A stretch of DNA of 64,000 nucleotides from Myxococcus stipitatus (GTDB lineage: Bacteria; Myxococcota; Myxococcia; Myxococcales; Myxococcaceae): NCBI RefSeq assembly GCF_038561935.1, contig NZ_CP102770.1:1798001-1862000 (forward strand), written 5' to 3'. The position numbers were made by a program, and so were the translations under genes. Positions 58,089-64,000 of the stretch are shown one piece after another. The notes below the pieces were generated by a model. That model ran no database searches. It saw nothing but the letters and a program-made list of their open reading frames with translations, and was not told the DNA's origin. How positions within the stretch are numbered: position 1 is the stretch's first letter; each line of letters begins with the position of its first letter.

Positions 58089-61000
58089 ATGAAGAGGCGA
58101 GAGTGGAGCGCACCCGCCACGGGCTGGTGGGTCTTGGGATTGTTGGCTGCCGGGAGCGTGGGCTGTTCGAGCGGAGCGCCTCCCTCGGGCGAGCCTGACC
58201 CGGGGTCGTCGGCGAGCCGGCTGAGTCCGGGGCCTGACCTGGTCATCACCGAGATGGACGTCCCGCCGACGCTTCGCATGGGACCCTACTCGACACCTGC
58301 GATGGCTTCGGTGCGGGTGTGCAACCAAGGCACGGACCCCAGCCCCTCGACGCGTGCCCATCTGTACGTGTCGATGGACGTGACGTTGACGCCGATGTCT
58401 CCGGGGCCGGTGACGGACCAGTCTCCACTGGGGAGCGTCGACATCCCCTACCTGTCTCCAGGGCAGTGCGCGACGAGGTCCGCGACGGTGTACGCCGCGC
58501 TTCCTCCGGATGCGCACGGGATGGTCGGCGGGTACTACGTGGGCGCCATCGTGGACGAGCAGGCGTCGGTCGCCGAGCAGCGCGAGGACAACAACACCTT
58601 CGTGAAGGGCATCGTCGGGATTGGTGACGGCGCGGACCTGGTCGTCACGGGCATCGGGATGCCGGCGAGCGTGCGCACGAACGGGTCCCCGGTGCCCGCG
58701 ACGGTGACGGTGTGCAACCAGGGCTCGCAGTCGATCTCCTCCACCTTCGTCAATCTCTATGCGTCGATGGACGACGTGCTGACGCCGTCCATGCCGGGCC
58801 CGGGCCCGGGCTACCCGGCGGCGACGGACCAGGCCTTCCTGGGCTCGGTTCCGCTCCAGTGGCTGGACCCGGGGCAGTGCAGGACGCTCTCCACGAACGT
58901 CTGGCCCGTACTGCCGCCGGACGCGATGGGGATGAGTGGCGCGTACTACGTGGGCGCCATCATCGATGAGCAGGGCGCCGTGCCGGAGCTGCGCGAGGAC
59001 AACAACATCTTCGTGAAGGGCCTGGTGGGGATGGGCCAGAAGCCGGACCTGGTCGTCACGGAGGTGAAGACCCCGGAGAGCCTGAGGGTCAACGGCCAGG
59101 GCTCCTCGCCCGTGAGCGTGAAGGTGTGCAACCAAGGGACGGAGTTCAGCCCTCCGACGCGCGCGCGCCTGTATGTGTCGATGGACCGGGAGCTGACGCC
59201 GATGCCCTCGGGGCCCGTGCCGCAGGCGATGGACCAGGTGCCCGTGGCGGACGTCCCCGTGTATGGCCTTGCTCCCACACAGTGCGCGGTGTTCACGGAG
59301 CTTGTCTGGGCCTCGCTGCCGCCGGCTGCGCAGGGAATGAGCGGCGCGTACTACGTGGGCGCTATCGTGGATGAGCAGGCCTCGGTGCAGGAGCTGCGCG
59401 AGGACAACAACACCTTCGTGGCGGGACCGGTGGGGATGGGGCAGGGGCCGGACCTGGTCATCACGAGCCTCCTCATGGCGGAGTACTTCCGCATCGACTC
59501 GGGCGGGACGCAGCTGCCGGCGACGGTGACGGCGTGCAACCGGGGCACGGAGCCGAGCCCCATGTCGCGAGTGCAGTTGTATGTCTCCCTGGACGCGGAG
59601 CTGACGCCCGTGATTCCAGGGCCTGGCTATCCGCCGATGGACCAGGCGCCACTGGGCATGGTGGACATGCCCAACCTGTATCCCGGGCAGTGCGCGAGCA
59701 GGTCCACGAACCTCTGGCCCGTGCTGCCGCCGGACGCGATGGGGATGGCGGGTGCGTACTACGTGGGCGCCATCATCGACGAGCATCAGTGGGTGAACGA
59801 GCTGCGCGAGGACAACAACATCTTCGTGAAGGGCCTGGTGGGAATCGGTCCGGGGCCGGACCTGGTCGTCACGGCGATGGAGACGCCCGCGAGCCTTCGC
59901 CACAATGGCCCGGGAGCCTCCTCGGTGCCCGCGACGGTGACGGTGTGCAACCGGGGCCTGGAGCCGAGCTCCTCGGCCAACGTGAGCCTGTATGTGTCGA
60001 TGGATGCGGTGCTGACGCCGATGATTCCGGGCCCGGGCTTCCCCGTGACGGACCAGAGCTTCCTGCAGTCGATTCCGGTTCCGGGGCTTCACCCGAAGCA
60101 GTGCAAGACGCTCTCCACGAGCATCTGGGCCGTGCTCCCGCCGGACGCGCAGGGCGCGGACGGGGCGTACTACCTGGCGGCCATCGTCGATGAGCAGAAG
60201 GCGGTGCCGGAGGTGCGCGAAGACAACAACATCTTCGTGAAGGGGCTCGTGGGGATGGGCCAGAAGCCGGACCTGGTCATCGCCGAGGTGAAGATTCCGG
60301 AGAGCGTGCGGTCGAGTGGCCCGGCGGGCTCCTCGACGGTGACCGTGAAGGTGTGCAACCAGGGCGTGGGGCAAAGCCAGACGAGCCGGGTGGGGCTGTA
60401 TGTGTCGATGGACCCGGAGCTGACGCCGATGGTGCCGAACCCCGGCTACATGCCCATGGACCAGATCTTCATCCGGGAAATCATCGTGCCCGACCTGGTC
60501 CCTGGACACTGCAGGTCGTTCACGGAGCCCTTCTGGGGCGTGCTGCCGCCGGATGCACAGGGGCGGAGTGGTGCGTACTACGTGGGGGCGGTGGTGGATG
60601 AGCAGCAGCTGGTGTCGGAGCTGCGCGAGGACAACAACGTCTTCGTGGCGGGGCTGATGGGCGTGGGCCAGGGCGCGGACCTGGTCATCACGAACGTCAC
60701 CATGCCGGAGAGCTACTCCCAGAATGGTCCCATTCCGCAGCCGGCGACGGCGACGGTGTGCAACCGGGGGACGGAGCTCGCGCCTCCGACGTCCGTGCAG
60801 TTCTATGTGTCGATGGACGCTGATTTGACGCCCATGCAGCCGATGTCTCCCTTTCCGCAGATGGACCAGGCGGCGATGGGATGGCTCGACGTGCCCGCCC
60901 TGTATCCCGGGCAGTGCTCCACGCGGTCCAAGAACCTCTGGTCCGTGCTCCCGCAGGACGCACAGGGCTCGAAGGGCGGGTACTACGTGGGCGCCATCGT

Positions 61001-62270
61001 GGATGAGCCGGCGTCGGTGCCGGAGCTGCGCGAGGACAACAACATCTTCGTGATGGGGAAGGTGGGCGTGGGGGATGGCCCGGACCTGGTCGTCAATGGA
61101 ATGAGCCTCCCCGCGAGTGTCACGCCGGGGCAGCCGATGGCGCTCAGCCTGAGGGCCTGCAACGTGGGCACGATGCCGAGTCCTCCGACGCAGGCTCAGC
61201 TCTACCTCTCCCTCGATGCGGATGTGACGCCGATGATGTCCGGCCCTGGGGGACCCGTGCCGCAGGACCAGTCACCCATCGGGCAGGTCGCGGTGCCAGC
61301 GCTGAGCGTGGGGCAATGCTTGACGCTCTCCGCCGCGCCCTCCGCCCTGCTGCCCCCGGATGGGCAGAACGTCCACGTGTACTACGTCGGTGTCATCATC
61401 GATGAGCAGGGGGCCGTGTCCGAGCTGCGGGAGGACAACAACCTCTACGCGCAGAAGACGATAGGGATTGGGAGCAAGCCGGACCTGGTCATCAAGGAAC
61501 TGCTCGCGCCCGCGAACGCGATGCCGAACCAGTCCATCCCGCTGAGTGTTCGGGTGTGCAACCAGGGCATGCAGCCCAGCCCTGGCACTGAGACTCGAAT
61601 CTACCTGTCGGTGGATGATGCGCTGTCGTTCGTGGCGCCCACCGGGTATCAGATGCCCGACCAGGCCTTCATGGCGGTCATGTCCGTTCCGTCGCTCATG
61701 CCGGGGGCGTGCCTCCTGCTCTCGACGTCGGCGCCCGTGATTCTTCCCCCGGACGCACAGGGGGAGGGGCGCTACTTCCTGGGGGCCATCGTCGACGAGC
61801 TGCGCTCGGTGGCCGAGCTGCGGGAGGACAACAACACCTTCGCGAAGACGCTCCTGGGCGTGGGGGCGAAGTCGGACCTGGTGGTCTCCGAGATGACGGC
61901 TCCCGCCACGATTCGTGCGGGCGGCACCCTCGGCATCACCGTCAAGGTGTGCAACCAGGGCACGCAGCCCAGCAGCGACAGCGCCGTGAGTGTCTACGTC
62001 TCCATGGACCTCGACCTCGCGCCGGAGGGGGCGTCCCCGGGCACGCCTCCCGGTCTGGACCAGGCCTTGGTGGGCACGGTGCCCGTGAGCCCCCTGGGGC
62101 CGGGGATGTGCACCAGCCGGCCGCTGAGCGCCCAGGTCCGTACGCCGCCAGACGCGCTGAGCTCGACGGGTGACTACTACCTGGGCGCCTACGTGGACTC
62201 CTACCTGCAAGTCGGGGAGCTGCGAGAGGAGAACAACACCCGCCTCGTCGTGCTCCGCATCCTGCCGTAG
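58089..62270 (+). CDS. Giant lipoprotein of ten tandem CARDB repeats
   Basis: 1393 residues. The lipoprotein signal ends LLAAGSVGC (lipidated Cys about 25), then a short Ser/Gly/Pro linker. Ten repeats of about 135 residues run to the C terminus. Each opens P/ADLVV or PDLVI, has a Cys in VTVCNQG or similar, carries a YVSMD segment, a second Cys in PGQC, a Y-x-G-A-I-x-D segment (YYVGAIVDE) and closes with LREDNN. This is the CARDB (cell adhesion-like, Ig-like) domain, related to bacterial adhesins. The paired Cys in each unit probably form a disulfide. No catalytic domain. Presumably surface-exposed, for adhesion or matrix binding, by inference. Confidence 0.85.
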   Translation: MKRREWSAPATGWWVLGLLAAGSVGCSSGAPPSGEPDPGSSASRLSPGPDLVITEMDVPPTLRMGPYSTPAMASVRVCNQGTDPSPSTRAHLYVSMDVTLTPMSPGPVTDQSPLGSVDIPYLSPGQCATRSATVYAALPPDAHGMVGGYYVGAIVDEQASVAEQREDNNTFVKGIVGIGDGADLVVTGIGMPASVRTNGSPVPATVTVCNQGSQSISSTFVNLYASMDDVLTPSMPGPGPGYPAATDQAFLGSVPLQWLDPGQCRTLSTNVWPVLPPDAMGMSGAYYVGAIIDEQGAVPELREDNNIFVKGLVGMGQKPDLVVTEVKTPESLRVNGQGSSPVSVKVCNQGTEFSPPTRARLYVSMDRELTPMPSGPVPQAMDQVPVADVPVYGLAPTQCAVFTELVWASLPPAAQGMSGAYYVGAIVDEQASVQELREDNNTFVAGPVGMGQGPDLVITSLLMAEYFRIDSGGTQLPATVTACNRGTEPSPMSRVQLYVSLDAELTPVIPGPGYPPMDQAPLGMVDMPNLYPGQCASRSTNLWPVLPPDAMGMAGAYYVGAIIDEHQWVNELREDNNIFVKGLVGIGPGPDLVVTAMETPASLRHNGPGASSVPATVTVCNRGLEPSSSANVSLYVSMDAVLTPMIPGPGFPVTDQSFLQSIPVPGLHPKQCKTLSTSIWAVLPPDAQGADGAYYLAAIVDEQKAVPEVREDNNIFVKGLVGMGQKPDLVIAEVKIPESVRSSGPAGSSTVTVKVCNQGVGQSQTSRVGLYVSMDPELTPMVPNPGYMPMDQIFIREIIVPDLVPGHCRSFTEPFWGVLPPDAQGRSGAYYVGAVVDEQQLVSELREDNNVFVAGLMGVGQGADLVITNVTMPESYSQNGPIPQPATATVCNRGTELAPPTSVQFYVSMDADLTPMQPMSPFPQMDQAAMGWLDVPALYPGQCSTRSKNLWSVLPQDAQGSKGGYYVGAIVDEPASVPELREDNNIFVMGKVGVGDGPDLVVNGMSLPASVTPGQPMALSLRACNVGTMPSPPTQAQLYLSLDADVTPMMSGPGGPVPQDQSPIGQVAVPALSVGQCLTLSAAPSALLPPDGQNVHVYYVGVIIDEQGAVSELREDNNLYAQKTIGIGSKPDLVIKELLAPANAMPNQSIPLSVRVCNQGMQPSPGTETRIYLSVDDALSFVAPTGYQMPDQAFMAVMSVPSLMPGACLLLSTSAPVILPPDAQGEGRYFLGAIVDELRSVAELREDNNTFAKTLLGVGAKSDLVVSEMTAPATIRAGGTLGITVKVCNQGTQPSSDSAVSVYVSMDLDLAPEGASPGTPPGLDQALVGTVPVSPLGPGMCTSRPLSAQVRTPPDALSSTGDYYLGAYVDSYLQVGELREENNTRLVVLRILP
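58232..62267 (+). repeat. Ten tandem ~400-bp CARDB repeats
   Basis: Units begin near 58232, 58632, 59043, 59448, 59856, 60267, 60675, 61079, 61481 and 61874. The length is nearly constant and neighbouring units share long runs of nearly identical DNA, so unequal crossing-over could change copy number. Confidence 0.8.
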
Positions 62271-62337: not shown

Positions 62338-64000
62338 TCAGCTCCCCAGCGGAGGTTCCGCGGGGGGGCGTGAAATCCACGCGGCGATGAACACATCCAG
62401 CTCGCCGCGCAGCACGTCCTTGACGCGAGGAGTCCCGGCGCCGGTGCGAGGGTCCTCCACGCGAGGGCTGCGGCCCAGGTAGTACCGCCGCGCTTCGTCC
62501 GTGGTCCCTCCCTGGCCGGCGACCACGCGCGCGGCGATGTCCTTCAGCTCGTCCAGCTCTCCCGCGCCGGTGAGGGTGAGCACGCGCCCGGTGGACTCGT
62601 CCTTCACCGTCACCTCCGTGCGCACGCGCTGGAGGTAGGCGCCCTCGTGGCTCTTCACGGGACGGCCGAGCACCTCCAGGAGCTCCAGCTCGTCCTCGGA
62701 GAGCGTGCCGCCCCGGTGCACGCGCACGTAGGCCCGCTGGCGTTTCTCGTCCTCCAGCCGCCGGTGCAGCCCCGCCTCGCCCGCGAGGAAGCCATACGCA
62801 CCCGGCCCGGCGATGCGCACCACCACGCGCGAGGGCTCATCCGCCTCGGCCACCGCCACCGCCTCGTAGCCGCGCCGCTGCGCCCAGCCCAGGTACATGG
62901 AGGCCAGCTCCTGCACCCACGCCTCCTGCGTCTCCGCCGAGTCGCTCGCGCAGATGTCCACCAGCGCCTCGTTGTCCTGCTGCGTGGCTCCGGACGCCTG
63001 CAGTGCCTCGGCCATCTGCACCTCGCGAGCGACGTCCTCCACCTGCCGCGCCGCGGAGGCGAGCTGCACCTCGTTCTTCGCCTCGCGCACCAGCCGGCGC
63101 GCGAAGAGGCACGCGGCCTCCAGGCGCTCCAGCTCGTTGATGTGCGCCTCCACCGTCCGGAAGGCCCGGATGACGTCGGCCGCGTGCGTGGGGTCGTCCC
63201 AGAGGTTGGGCGCCTGGGTCTCCGTCAGCAGGGACGCACGCCGCTCCTCCAGCTCCGGCCGGCCCGACGAGGCCGCCAGCGCGCGCGCCTTGCCCACCAG
63301 CCGGTCCATCTCCACCAGCAGCGACTTGCGGTCCAGCCGCCGCTTCACCGGAGCGGCACGCGCGGACGGCAGGAGCAGCTGCGCGGTGGGCGCGGGCGGG
63401 GGCGAGGCGGGCTCGGCCACGGCCATGACCCGGCCTCCCGGGCGCGCTTCCACGCGCACGGGCGTCCCAGGCGCCAGCGGCTTGCGGGCAATCTCCACGG
63501 CCAGCGCGGCGGTGAGGGTCTTCTCGATTTCGCGCTGGAGGTAGCGCGCGCCGAACTGGGGGGAGTAGCCGCGCTCCACGAGGATGTCGACGACCTCGGG
63601 AGTGACCTCCACGTCCAGCGAGCGCGCGCGGATACCCTCGCGCTCCAGCACCCGGCCGACCTCGCGCTGCGCGATTTTTCGGATGTCCACCTTGGACAGG
63701 GGCTGGAAGTGACAGATGGCGTCGAAGCGGTTGAGGAACTCCGGACGGAAGGACTCTCCGATGCGGCGGTCCACCTCCGACACCATCTCGTCCGCGCGCT
63801 TGGTGCCCGCGAAGCCCATGGCCGGCTCGCGGTACACCTCGGCGCCCACGTTGGACGTGGCGACGATGAGCGTGTTGTTGCACGACACCACCTCGCCCGC
63901 GCCGTTGACGAAGGTGCCCTCGTCGAAGAGCTGGAGGAAGCGGTCATGCACGCTGCGCGCGGCCTTCTCGAACTCGTCGAGCAGCAGCACGGAGAACACC
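62338..64000 (-). CDS. Partial Clp/Hsp100 AAA+ ATPase fused to a release-factor-2-like domain
   Basis: At least 554 residues; it continues past the right edge. The visible start has Walker B VLLLDEFEKA and a sensor-type TSNVGAE, then SFRPEFLNRFDAI and the Clp D2-small end (GYSPQFGARYLQREIEKTL), as in ClpB/ClpC D2. A Pro/Ala linker (about 63360-63450) leads to a region matching RF2: NLWDDP of the PCRF N part, EALVDICASDSAETQEAWVQ and MYLGWAQRRGYEAV, AYGFLAGEAGLHRRL and the C-terminal DPRTG-x8-VL-x-GELDVFIAAW. The SPF stop-codon anticodon is absent and GGQ is replaced (VKSHEGAYLQR). So it looks like a ribosome-binding, non-catalytic RF2 module on a Clp unfoldase. No stop or frameshift divides the parts. 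Confidence 0.85.
   Translation of the reverse strand, partial: VFSVLLLDEFEKAARSVHDRFLQLFDEGTFVNGAGEVVSCNNTLIVATSNVGAEVYREPAMGFAGTKRADEMVSEVDRRIGESFRPEFLNRFDAICHFQPLSKVDIRKIAQREVGRVLEREGIRARSLDVEVTPEVVDILVERGYSPQFGARYLQREIEKTLTAALAVEIARKPLAPGTPVRVEARPGGRVMAVAEPASPPPAPTAQLLLPSARAAPVKRRLDRKSLLVEMDRLVGKARALAASSGRPELEERRASLLTETQAPNLWDDPTHAADVIRAFRTVEAHINELERLEAACLFARRLVREAKNEVQLASAARQVEDVAREVQMAEALQASGATQQDNEALVDICASDSAETQEAWVQELASMYLGWAQRRGYEAVAVAEADEPSRVVVRIAGPGAYGFLAGEAGLHRRLEDEKRQRAYVRVHRGGTLSEDELELLEVLGRPVKSHEGAYLQRVRTEVTVKDESTGRVLTLTGAGELDELKDIAARVVAGQGGTTDEARRYYLGRSPRVEDPRTGAGTPRVKDVLRGELDVFIAAWISRPPAEPPLGS

Follow-up and report, generated by a model that had tools for sequence, protein, structure and literature searches.

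A ClpC/ClpA-like Hsp100 protein of myxobacteria joined to a release factor 2 fold that lacks the stop-reading and hydrolysis motifs

The window, by which we mean the whole 64,000-nucleotide stretch analysed here (G000:C1:1798001-1862000, in the 10.17 Mb genome of Myxococcus stipitatus), ends on its right-hand side within a long minus-strand gene. The frame (62338-64000) runs without a stop from the window edge down to its own stop codon at 62338-62340, and the gene reaches 1,157 bases beyond the window's right edge, with its start at G000:C1:1863157, the whole being an ORF of 939 codons (L005:7339-10158, minus strand). From the part inside the window, the preliminary description had proposed a Clp-type unfoldase fused to a domain derived from release factor 2 (RF2), and the fusion is real: both parts lie in one 939-residue frame, and the join is conserved across relatives. 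The protein begins directly at a D1-like AAA+ module, residue 14 aligning with position 172 of the ClpA model, and it lacks an N-domain. Pfam places AAA in D1 (residues 51-126), followed by AAA_2 (313-481, 6.6e-34), ClpB_D2-small (487-569, 1.7e-14) and PCRF (637-799, 2.5e-15), while the NCBIfam prfB model matches at 1.6e-23 with 83 bits, far below its whole-protein cut-off of 370. The features that fall within the window are as follows.

62338..64000, minus strand: Hsp100-pseudoRF2 gene, codons 387-939 plus stop (ORF calls; conserved in relatives)
63961..63990, minus strand: D2 Walker B, VLLLDEFEKA, intact (24 of 24 full-length homologues)
63715..63999, minus strand: in-window part of the D2 AAA+ core, residues 387-481 of the AAA_2 match 313-481 (Pfam, NCBIfam; best PDB sequence ClpC)
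63811..63819, minus strand: ClpP-loop tripeptide MGF, residues 447-449 ([ILMV]GF in 24 of 24)
63451..63699, minus strand: ClpB_D2-small domain, residues 487-569 (Pfam)
63283..63432, minus strand: linker from the Clp part to the RF part, residues 576-625 (alignment; dN/dS 0.10-0.60)
62992..63330, minus strand: RF domain 1-like helical bundle, residues 610-722 (PCRF, AlphaFold2 model, fold matches)
62710..62985, minus strand: first half of an RF domain 2-like region, residues 725-816 (RF2 profile match, AlphaFold2 model, fold match)
62740..62766, minus strand: HRRLEDEKR, the site where the SPF recognition loop of RF2 is absent (SPF in 0 of 33 homologues; alignments)
62509..62679, minus strand: RF domain 3-like region, shortened, residues 827-883 (alignments, AlphaFold2 model)
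62638..62646, minus strand: GGQ-equivalent tripeptide, here E-G-A (x-G-x in 33 of 33, never GGQ)
62371..62502, minus strand: RF domain 2/4 C-terminal block, RVEDPRTG...GELDVFIAAW (mean column identity 0.836, the most conserved part of the tail)

Judged by its motifs and predicted fold, the product is, to near certainty, a ClpC/ClpA-type Hsp100 that is nearly confined to a single family of myxobacteria and is joined to a complete RF2 fold without the motifs for reading stop codons and hydrolysing peptidyl-tRNA. Convergent with the gene, on the plus strand at 58089-62270, lies a 1393-residue protein with ten CARDB stretches; in some close relatives it has matches beside the fusion, mostly only 43-47% identical.

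In class I Hsp100s, an [LIV]-G-[FL] loop on the last AAA+ ring makes the contact with ClpP, and substrates are threaded by pore loops bearing aromatic residues. The fusion has the two AAA+ modules and the D2-small domain of this class, and in an alignment of 24 full-length proteins the D2 motifs GPTGVGKT, VLLLDEFEKA, TSN, FLNRFD and GAR are present throughout, the D2 Walker A and Walker B being intact by motif. At the ClpP-loop position the same 24 proteins carry IGF (12), LGF (seven), MGF (three) or VGF (two). Among the other Hsp100s of the genome, this position reads IGF in L189 and MGF in L188 and L190, three proteins taken here as ClpA/ClpC-like (our own labels, not drawn from a family search), and in the Hsp100 alignment the tripeptide is absent from the genome's ClpB and from L191. 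The N terminus, which lay outside the window and in which the preliminary description had hoped to see an N-domain, D1 and a ClpP loop, turns out to lack the N-domain and to lead into a degenerate D1, with a ClpP-type tripeptide further along in all full-length members. In D1, the Walker B aspartate is replaced by arginine (hhhhRD for hhhhDE) in all 24. The D2 pore loop is also remodelled, with GYVG replaced in every protein by FGxxWA......RGEL, which keeps the length and has an invariant tryptophan; five ordinary Hsp100s of the genome carry GYVG at this position. Because both replacements are universal in the alignment, threading by this protein is uncertain.

Structural comparison likewise places the AAA+ part close to ClpC. 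The best PDB sequence for the fusion is Staphylococcus aureus ClpC (2.3e-73), with ClpB proteins close behind, and the top-ranked folds for a full-length model of a Myxococcus xanthus orthologue (pLDDT 79.3) are mostly ClpC, many of them in ClpC-ClpP complexes, the first being a ClpC-ClpP model. The pTM of that model is 0.48, so that it does not fix how the domains are arranged in the full-length protein.

In RF2, the SPF tripeptide serves to read stop codons and GGQ to hydrolyse peptidyl-tRNA. The tail of the fusion, which follows a variable linker, carries the PCRF domain and the RF2 fold over its full length, and the RF2 hallmark blocks named in the preliminary description are there. A profile built from 33 homologous tails aligns nearly end to end with Escherichia coli RF2 (profile 46-336 on RF2 31-360, E 4.4e-24), the RF1/RF2 comparison that the preliminary description had proposed, whereas its best match to RF1 is weaker (1.7e-13); hhalign of the tail family against the M. 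stipitatus genome's own prfB gives a probability of 98.2 (E 3.3e-14). The AlphaFold2 model of the tail (pLDDT 83.6) superimposes on free RF2 (1gqe) with Z 24.5 and an rmsd of 3.9 over 314 residues, and Foldseek returns the same structure at E 1.0e-18 (TM 0.69/0.66). Ribosome-bound RF2 (8p16) is matched at E 7.0e-19 with a TM of only 0.40, and among tail-spanning matches 1gqe fits far better than ribosome-bound RF2 (rmsd near 12), so that the model adopts a compact form.

The loss of both functional tripeptides is borne out by the alignment of 33 tails (in which L091 and the decayed copy L090 are partial rows). SPF occurs in none, its loop being missing in alignments with RF2, and the GGQ-equivalent site reads x-G-x in all 33, with an invariant glycine and never a glutamine in the third place. 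This alignment also disposes of the worry that a mis-registered alignment had hidden SPF or GGQ. Five of the 33 rows do contain a GGQ string away from the equivalent site: L073, L074, L078 and L080 at position 8, in the linker, L073 a second time near 288, and the partial row L091 at position 174. The genome's own prfB carries both SPF and GGQ, and its prfA carries GGQ. The statement that exactly these two tripeptides are missing proved too narrow, however. By eye, the alignments indicate that a third element is gone, the GGT-type loop preceding the helix of domain 2 (GGTEA in E. coli RF2 and GGTDS in the genome's own prfB), and that about 25 to 30 residues fewer than in RF2 separate the GGQ site from the C-terminal block. 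Conservation is uneven along the tail, mean column identity falling from the C-terminal domain 2/4 block (0.836) through domain 1 (0.745) and the first half of domain 2 (0.686) to domain 3 (0.615).

To follow the fusion through its relatives, we searched sets of genomes of increasing breadth, as the preliminary description had suggested for the myxobacteria. Among the best matches listed from 61 near genomes, identity is 91-100% within the genus, 88-95% in two genomes where the gene is in two pieces, 82% in G033 and 58-64% in G027, G028, G030, G031, G035 and G037 (one more piece in G027 is 50% identical); between distant genera it is about 60%. At the level of the class, a tail match below 1e-50 is found in 86 of 96 genomes of the fusion's own family and in one of 51 others (G037), a count of genome rows in which copies truncated at contig ends, and the decayed G128 copy, are included. 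The fusion is colinear in most of these 86. No tail match better than 1e-17 was found in the other ten own-family genomes, six of which are at least 90% complete, and the fusion is therefore dispensable at the species level. Among 146 genomes sampled across the phylum, matches spanning both parts at E 1e-70 or better are confined to the fusion's own family and G037; the remaining matches, two long frames of G163 apart, cover the AAA part only. A scan of named genomes with two family-specific peptide patterns, which more distant fusions would escape, returned 118 pattern matches, which resolve to 48 loci; apart from L053, the records all bear titles of Myxococcaceae, Archangiaceae, Myxococcales or their genera. 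M. xanthus strain AM003 is among the carriers (L055). The L053 record is titled Comamonas sp. KCTC 72670, and its copy is a typical Myxococcus-type one, 92% identical and with the HNH neighbour described below; the title is probably wrong and the genome mislabelled.

Nei-Gojobori comparisons with six relatives gave dN/dS values below 1 for all six pairs in each of five regions: 0.063-0.167 in D1, 0.072-0.126 in D2, 0.10-0.60 in the linker, and 0.167-0.618 and 0.131-0.265 in the two RF segments. The highest value, 0.618, belongs to RF domain 1 in the comparison with Archangium (L070), and evolution is faster in the RF part of the protein than in the AAA part.

Two copies depart from the common arrangement. 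In G009, a two-contig genome, the Clp and RF halves are in different frames (L042:5339-8144) and the GC repeat of the linker is two bases shorter; this is probably an assembly error and possibly a real split. In the metagenome-assembled genome G128, the copy (L090:7719-8912, in C77) consists of an apparent N-terminus and linker remnants followed by an RF-like tail, in different frames; it lies between xerC and hslV-hslU, looks decayed and is without the AAA part, for which the rest of that genome gave no close match either. As for homologues with the two parts separate and unrelated, which the preliminary description would have counted against itself, the join is conserved in relatives, these two copies excepted. 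Long spurious frames do occur in high-GC genomes, and together with the frame-split halves of G009 and the decayed look of L090 this might suggest that the fusion is an assembly join, a pseudogene or a chance open frame. Such a reading is scarcely credible, since the fusion is colinear in most of the 86 matching own-family genomes and in the named loci with enough flank, with dN/dS below 1; the conservation already refutes it, and we reject both assembly artefact, including an erroneous joining of two genes, and pseudogene.

No conserved operon partner was found when five neighbour genes were followed in 58 loci, a good number of which have short flanks. In 30 of the 58 loci, all of them from close relatives and none deep-branching, an HNH endonuclease-family gene (L005:11304-11846, minus strand) stands upstream of the fusion in the same orientation; given this restriction and its varying distance from the fusion, no operon is inferred. 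A link to HslVU was considered and rejected, because hslV-hslU adjoins in only one of 56 loci, L090, where the copy is in several frames and has no AAA part. Elsewhere in the M. stipitatus genome we found an ordinary prfB, whose presence beside the fusion the preliminary description had wanted confirmed, and also prfA, two strong clpP genes with one weak further match, one tmRNA above the family cut-off and 13 ClpB_D2-small proteins including the fusion. With prfB, prfA, clpP and tmRNA all present, the fusion adds to normal termination and rescue and does not replace them.

Far from the window, at G000:C1:6681934-6691052, lies a clearly related locus of three tandem and divergent Hsp100-like genes, A (1136 residues), B (1130) and C (769) (L006:5935-15053, plus strand), none of which has the usual DE pair in the D1 Walker B. 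PCRF is found in the A tails of seven of eight orthologues, the A tail profile matches RF2 structures at 1.3e-6, and hhalign relates the A tail to the fusion tail with a probability of 94.7 (E 6.1e-8). In the alignment, read by eye, DLRTG follows the domain-2 HR block of the A tail with hardly anything between, domain 3 with GGQ being missing. On this sequence evidence, A is a second Hsp100-RF gene, further derived, with an RF-derived tail that appears to have lost the catalytic domain. A-type tails are present in 34 of 91 family genomes and five of 26 genera. At the lax limit of E 1, two of the eight A tails match the L7/L12 C-terminal domain; the best match (L196:2853-3950, from G092) lies inside the RF-like tail and, at 1.3e-5, exactly at Pfam's cut-off, and the A tail of L197 has no L7/L12 match at 0.001. 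The B tail had also looked RF-like by eye, a suspicion that is unsupported (0.6% probability in hhalign against the A tail, and no significant RF match). In the AAA tree, the fusion, the A/B/C group and the ordinary Clps form three groups, although long branches may meet. A single ancestral fusion behind both Hsp100-RF genes is not supported by these three groups, and one or two fusions are both compatible with them.

The best explanation of these observations, to which we give a probability of roughly 0.4, is that the fusion is a ClpP-docking Hsp100 that uses its pseudo-RF2 as a recognition or targeting module, plausibly for ribosomes. Sequence and predicted fold show the architecture, the loss of the catalytic motifs, the conservation, the ClpP tripeptide and the D2 motifs. 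Beyond these, the protein would form a hexamer with unfolding activity, its D2 ring docking on ClpP via the conserved [ILMV]GF loop and its tail serving as a non-catalytic targeting module. The tail most likely would still dock near the factor or A site of the ribosome, or on another partner of release factors, and, while not itself terminating translation, may in this way deliver the unfoldase with ClpP to ribosomes that have stalled, to their nascent chains or to factors bound there. That the tail still finds the ribosome is suggested by its RF2 origin, its intact fold and the weakly L7/L12-like segment in the paralogue. In its fullest form, the tail would sit on the factor site of stalled or idle ribosomes while the ClpP-coupled ring pulls out or degrades either the nascent chain or a bound factor, a duplicated RF2 having become the docking arm of a rescue route apart from tmRNA, ArfA/ArfB and RqcH, with a second version, from the A-B-C locus, in many of the same cells; this extended form we advance tentatively, as somewhat improbable. 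The preliminary description had arrived at a similar interpretation, a release factor turned A-site adapter for a Clp unfoldase. Its basis stands, in that a Clp-type unfoldase is fused to an RF2-derived domain without catalytic and stop-reading motifs, prfB coexists and the ClpP tripeptide is present in all 24 full-length proteins, but the disappearance of GGQ, SPF and the GGT-type loop, of GYVG and of the D1 Walker B aspartate argues against the simple reading, as would the placement of six tails near the ClpP docking face. Its further suggestion, a route different from tmRNA, ArfA/B or RQC, we treat as a hypothesis.

Two other roles are serious rivals to a ClpP-coupled targeting module. A ribosome-targeted, threading machine calls for caution, because RF2 elements have been lost, the pore loops are remodelled and the six 40-kDa tails would hang at the D2 side, near the ClpP docking face; the low conservation of domain 3, the lowest in the tail, and the absence of the codon-reading and hydrolysis motifs also count against our best explanation, as do the faster evolution of the RF part, the ten own-family genomes with no tail match better than 1e-17 and the lack of a conserved operon partner among the five neighbour genes. 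The loss of the RF2 motifs, with the structural core kept and conservation greatest in the C-terminal domain 2/4 block and least in domain 3, are what one might expect had the RF2 fold been domesticated as a client-binding or assembly scaffold for the Hsp100, off the ribosome and for some other client protein, and the paralogues point the same way, the catalytic domain being missing (by eye) from the A tail and the B tail having no significant RF match. A tRNA-shaped ribosome factor would be an odd source for a generic scaffold, however, and the L7/L12-like segment in one or two A-type tails is a weak pointer back to translation; we consider this role doubtful. A pseudo-RF could alternatively fill the factor site, or bind an RF2 partner, and hold ribosomes idle as a hibernation or stress brake, with the AAA+ part removing or regulating it at the expense of ATP and without degradation. 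An intact fold with a lost active-site motif would suit such a role, as would the non-canonical pore loops, which are better fitted to remodelling than to processive threading, and Dom34, a catalytically inactive release-factor relative, provides a precedent in ribosome rescue (PMC6514570). It would nevertheless leave the conserved ClpP tripeptide without a purpose, and we regard it as unlikely.

To our knowledge, no protein joining a bacterial release factor to a Clp unfoldase has been recognized, each of the two being a textbook family. Searches of the open-licence literature, a scope that leaves most subscription papers and all preprints outside, yielded no description of a Clp-release-factor fusion, and the main text of PMC6514570 contains neither 'clp' nor 'myxo' (0 occurrences of each). 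If the pseudo-RF2 still finds the ribosome, the fusion would couple the termination machinery physically to AAA+ proteolysis, loosely as eukaryotes do with Vms1 and CDC48. Even without ribosome binding, the fusion shows an entire release factor taken over as a module without catalysis, and the relatives of this module occupy two loci in a single genome. Its presence in M. xanthus places it in a genetically tractable species.

With ClpC and ClpA, the fusion shares the two AAA+ modules, the D2 Walker A and B, TSN, FLNRFD and GAR motifs, the small domain and the [ILMV]GF loop, and it differs from them in having no N-domain, arginine for aspartate in the D1 Walker B, a replaced GYVG and a C-terminal tail of 350 residues derived from RF2. 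Compared with RF2 itself (prfB), the fold is retained across nearly the whole length of the tail, whereas GGQ, SPF and the GGT-type loop have been lost, domain 3 is shortened, the fold is joined to an ATPase and a normal prfB coexists. PrfH is a GGQ-bearing release-factor homologue without domain 1 that acts on damaged ribosomes, and we know of no AAA+ part in it. The tail matches the PrfH fold with Z 9 to 10 over 100 to 120 residues, far more distantly than RF2 (Z 24.5), and unlike PrfH it lacks GGQ and has domain 1. Dom34/Pelota and Vms1 are release-factor relatives, the latter working with the AAA+ ATPase CDC48 (PMC6514570). The likeness to these proteins, a release-factor fold without hydrolysis or with disputed hydrolysis and, for Vms1, an AAA+ link (PMC6514570), is by analogy only, as they have the unrelated archaeo-eukaryotic release-factor fold and are separate proteins, not fused to an ATPase. 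With tmRNA-SmpB, ArfA, ArfB and RqcH, finally, the fusion may have a target in common, namely stalled ribosomes, and, tmRNA being encoded in the same genome, it would be an addition to that pathway.
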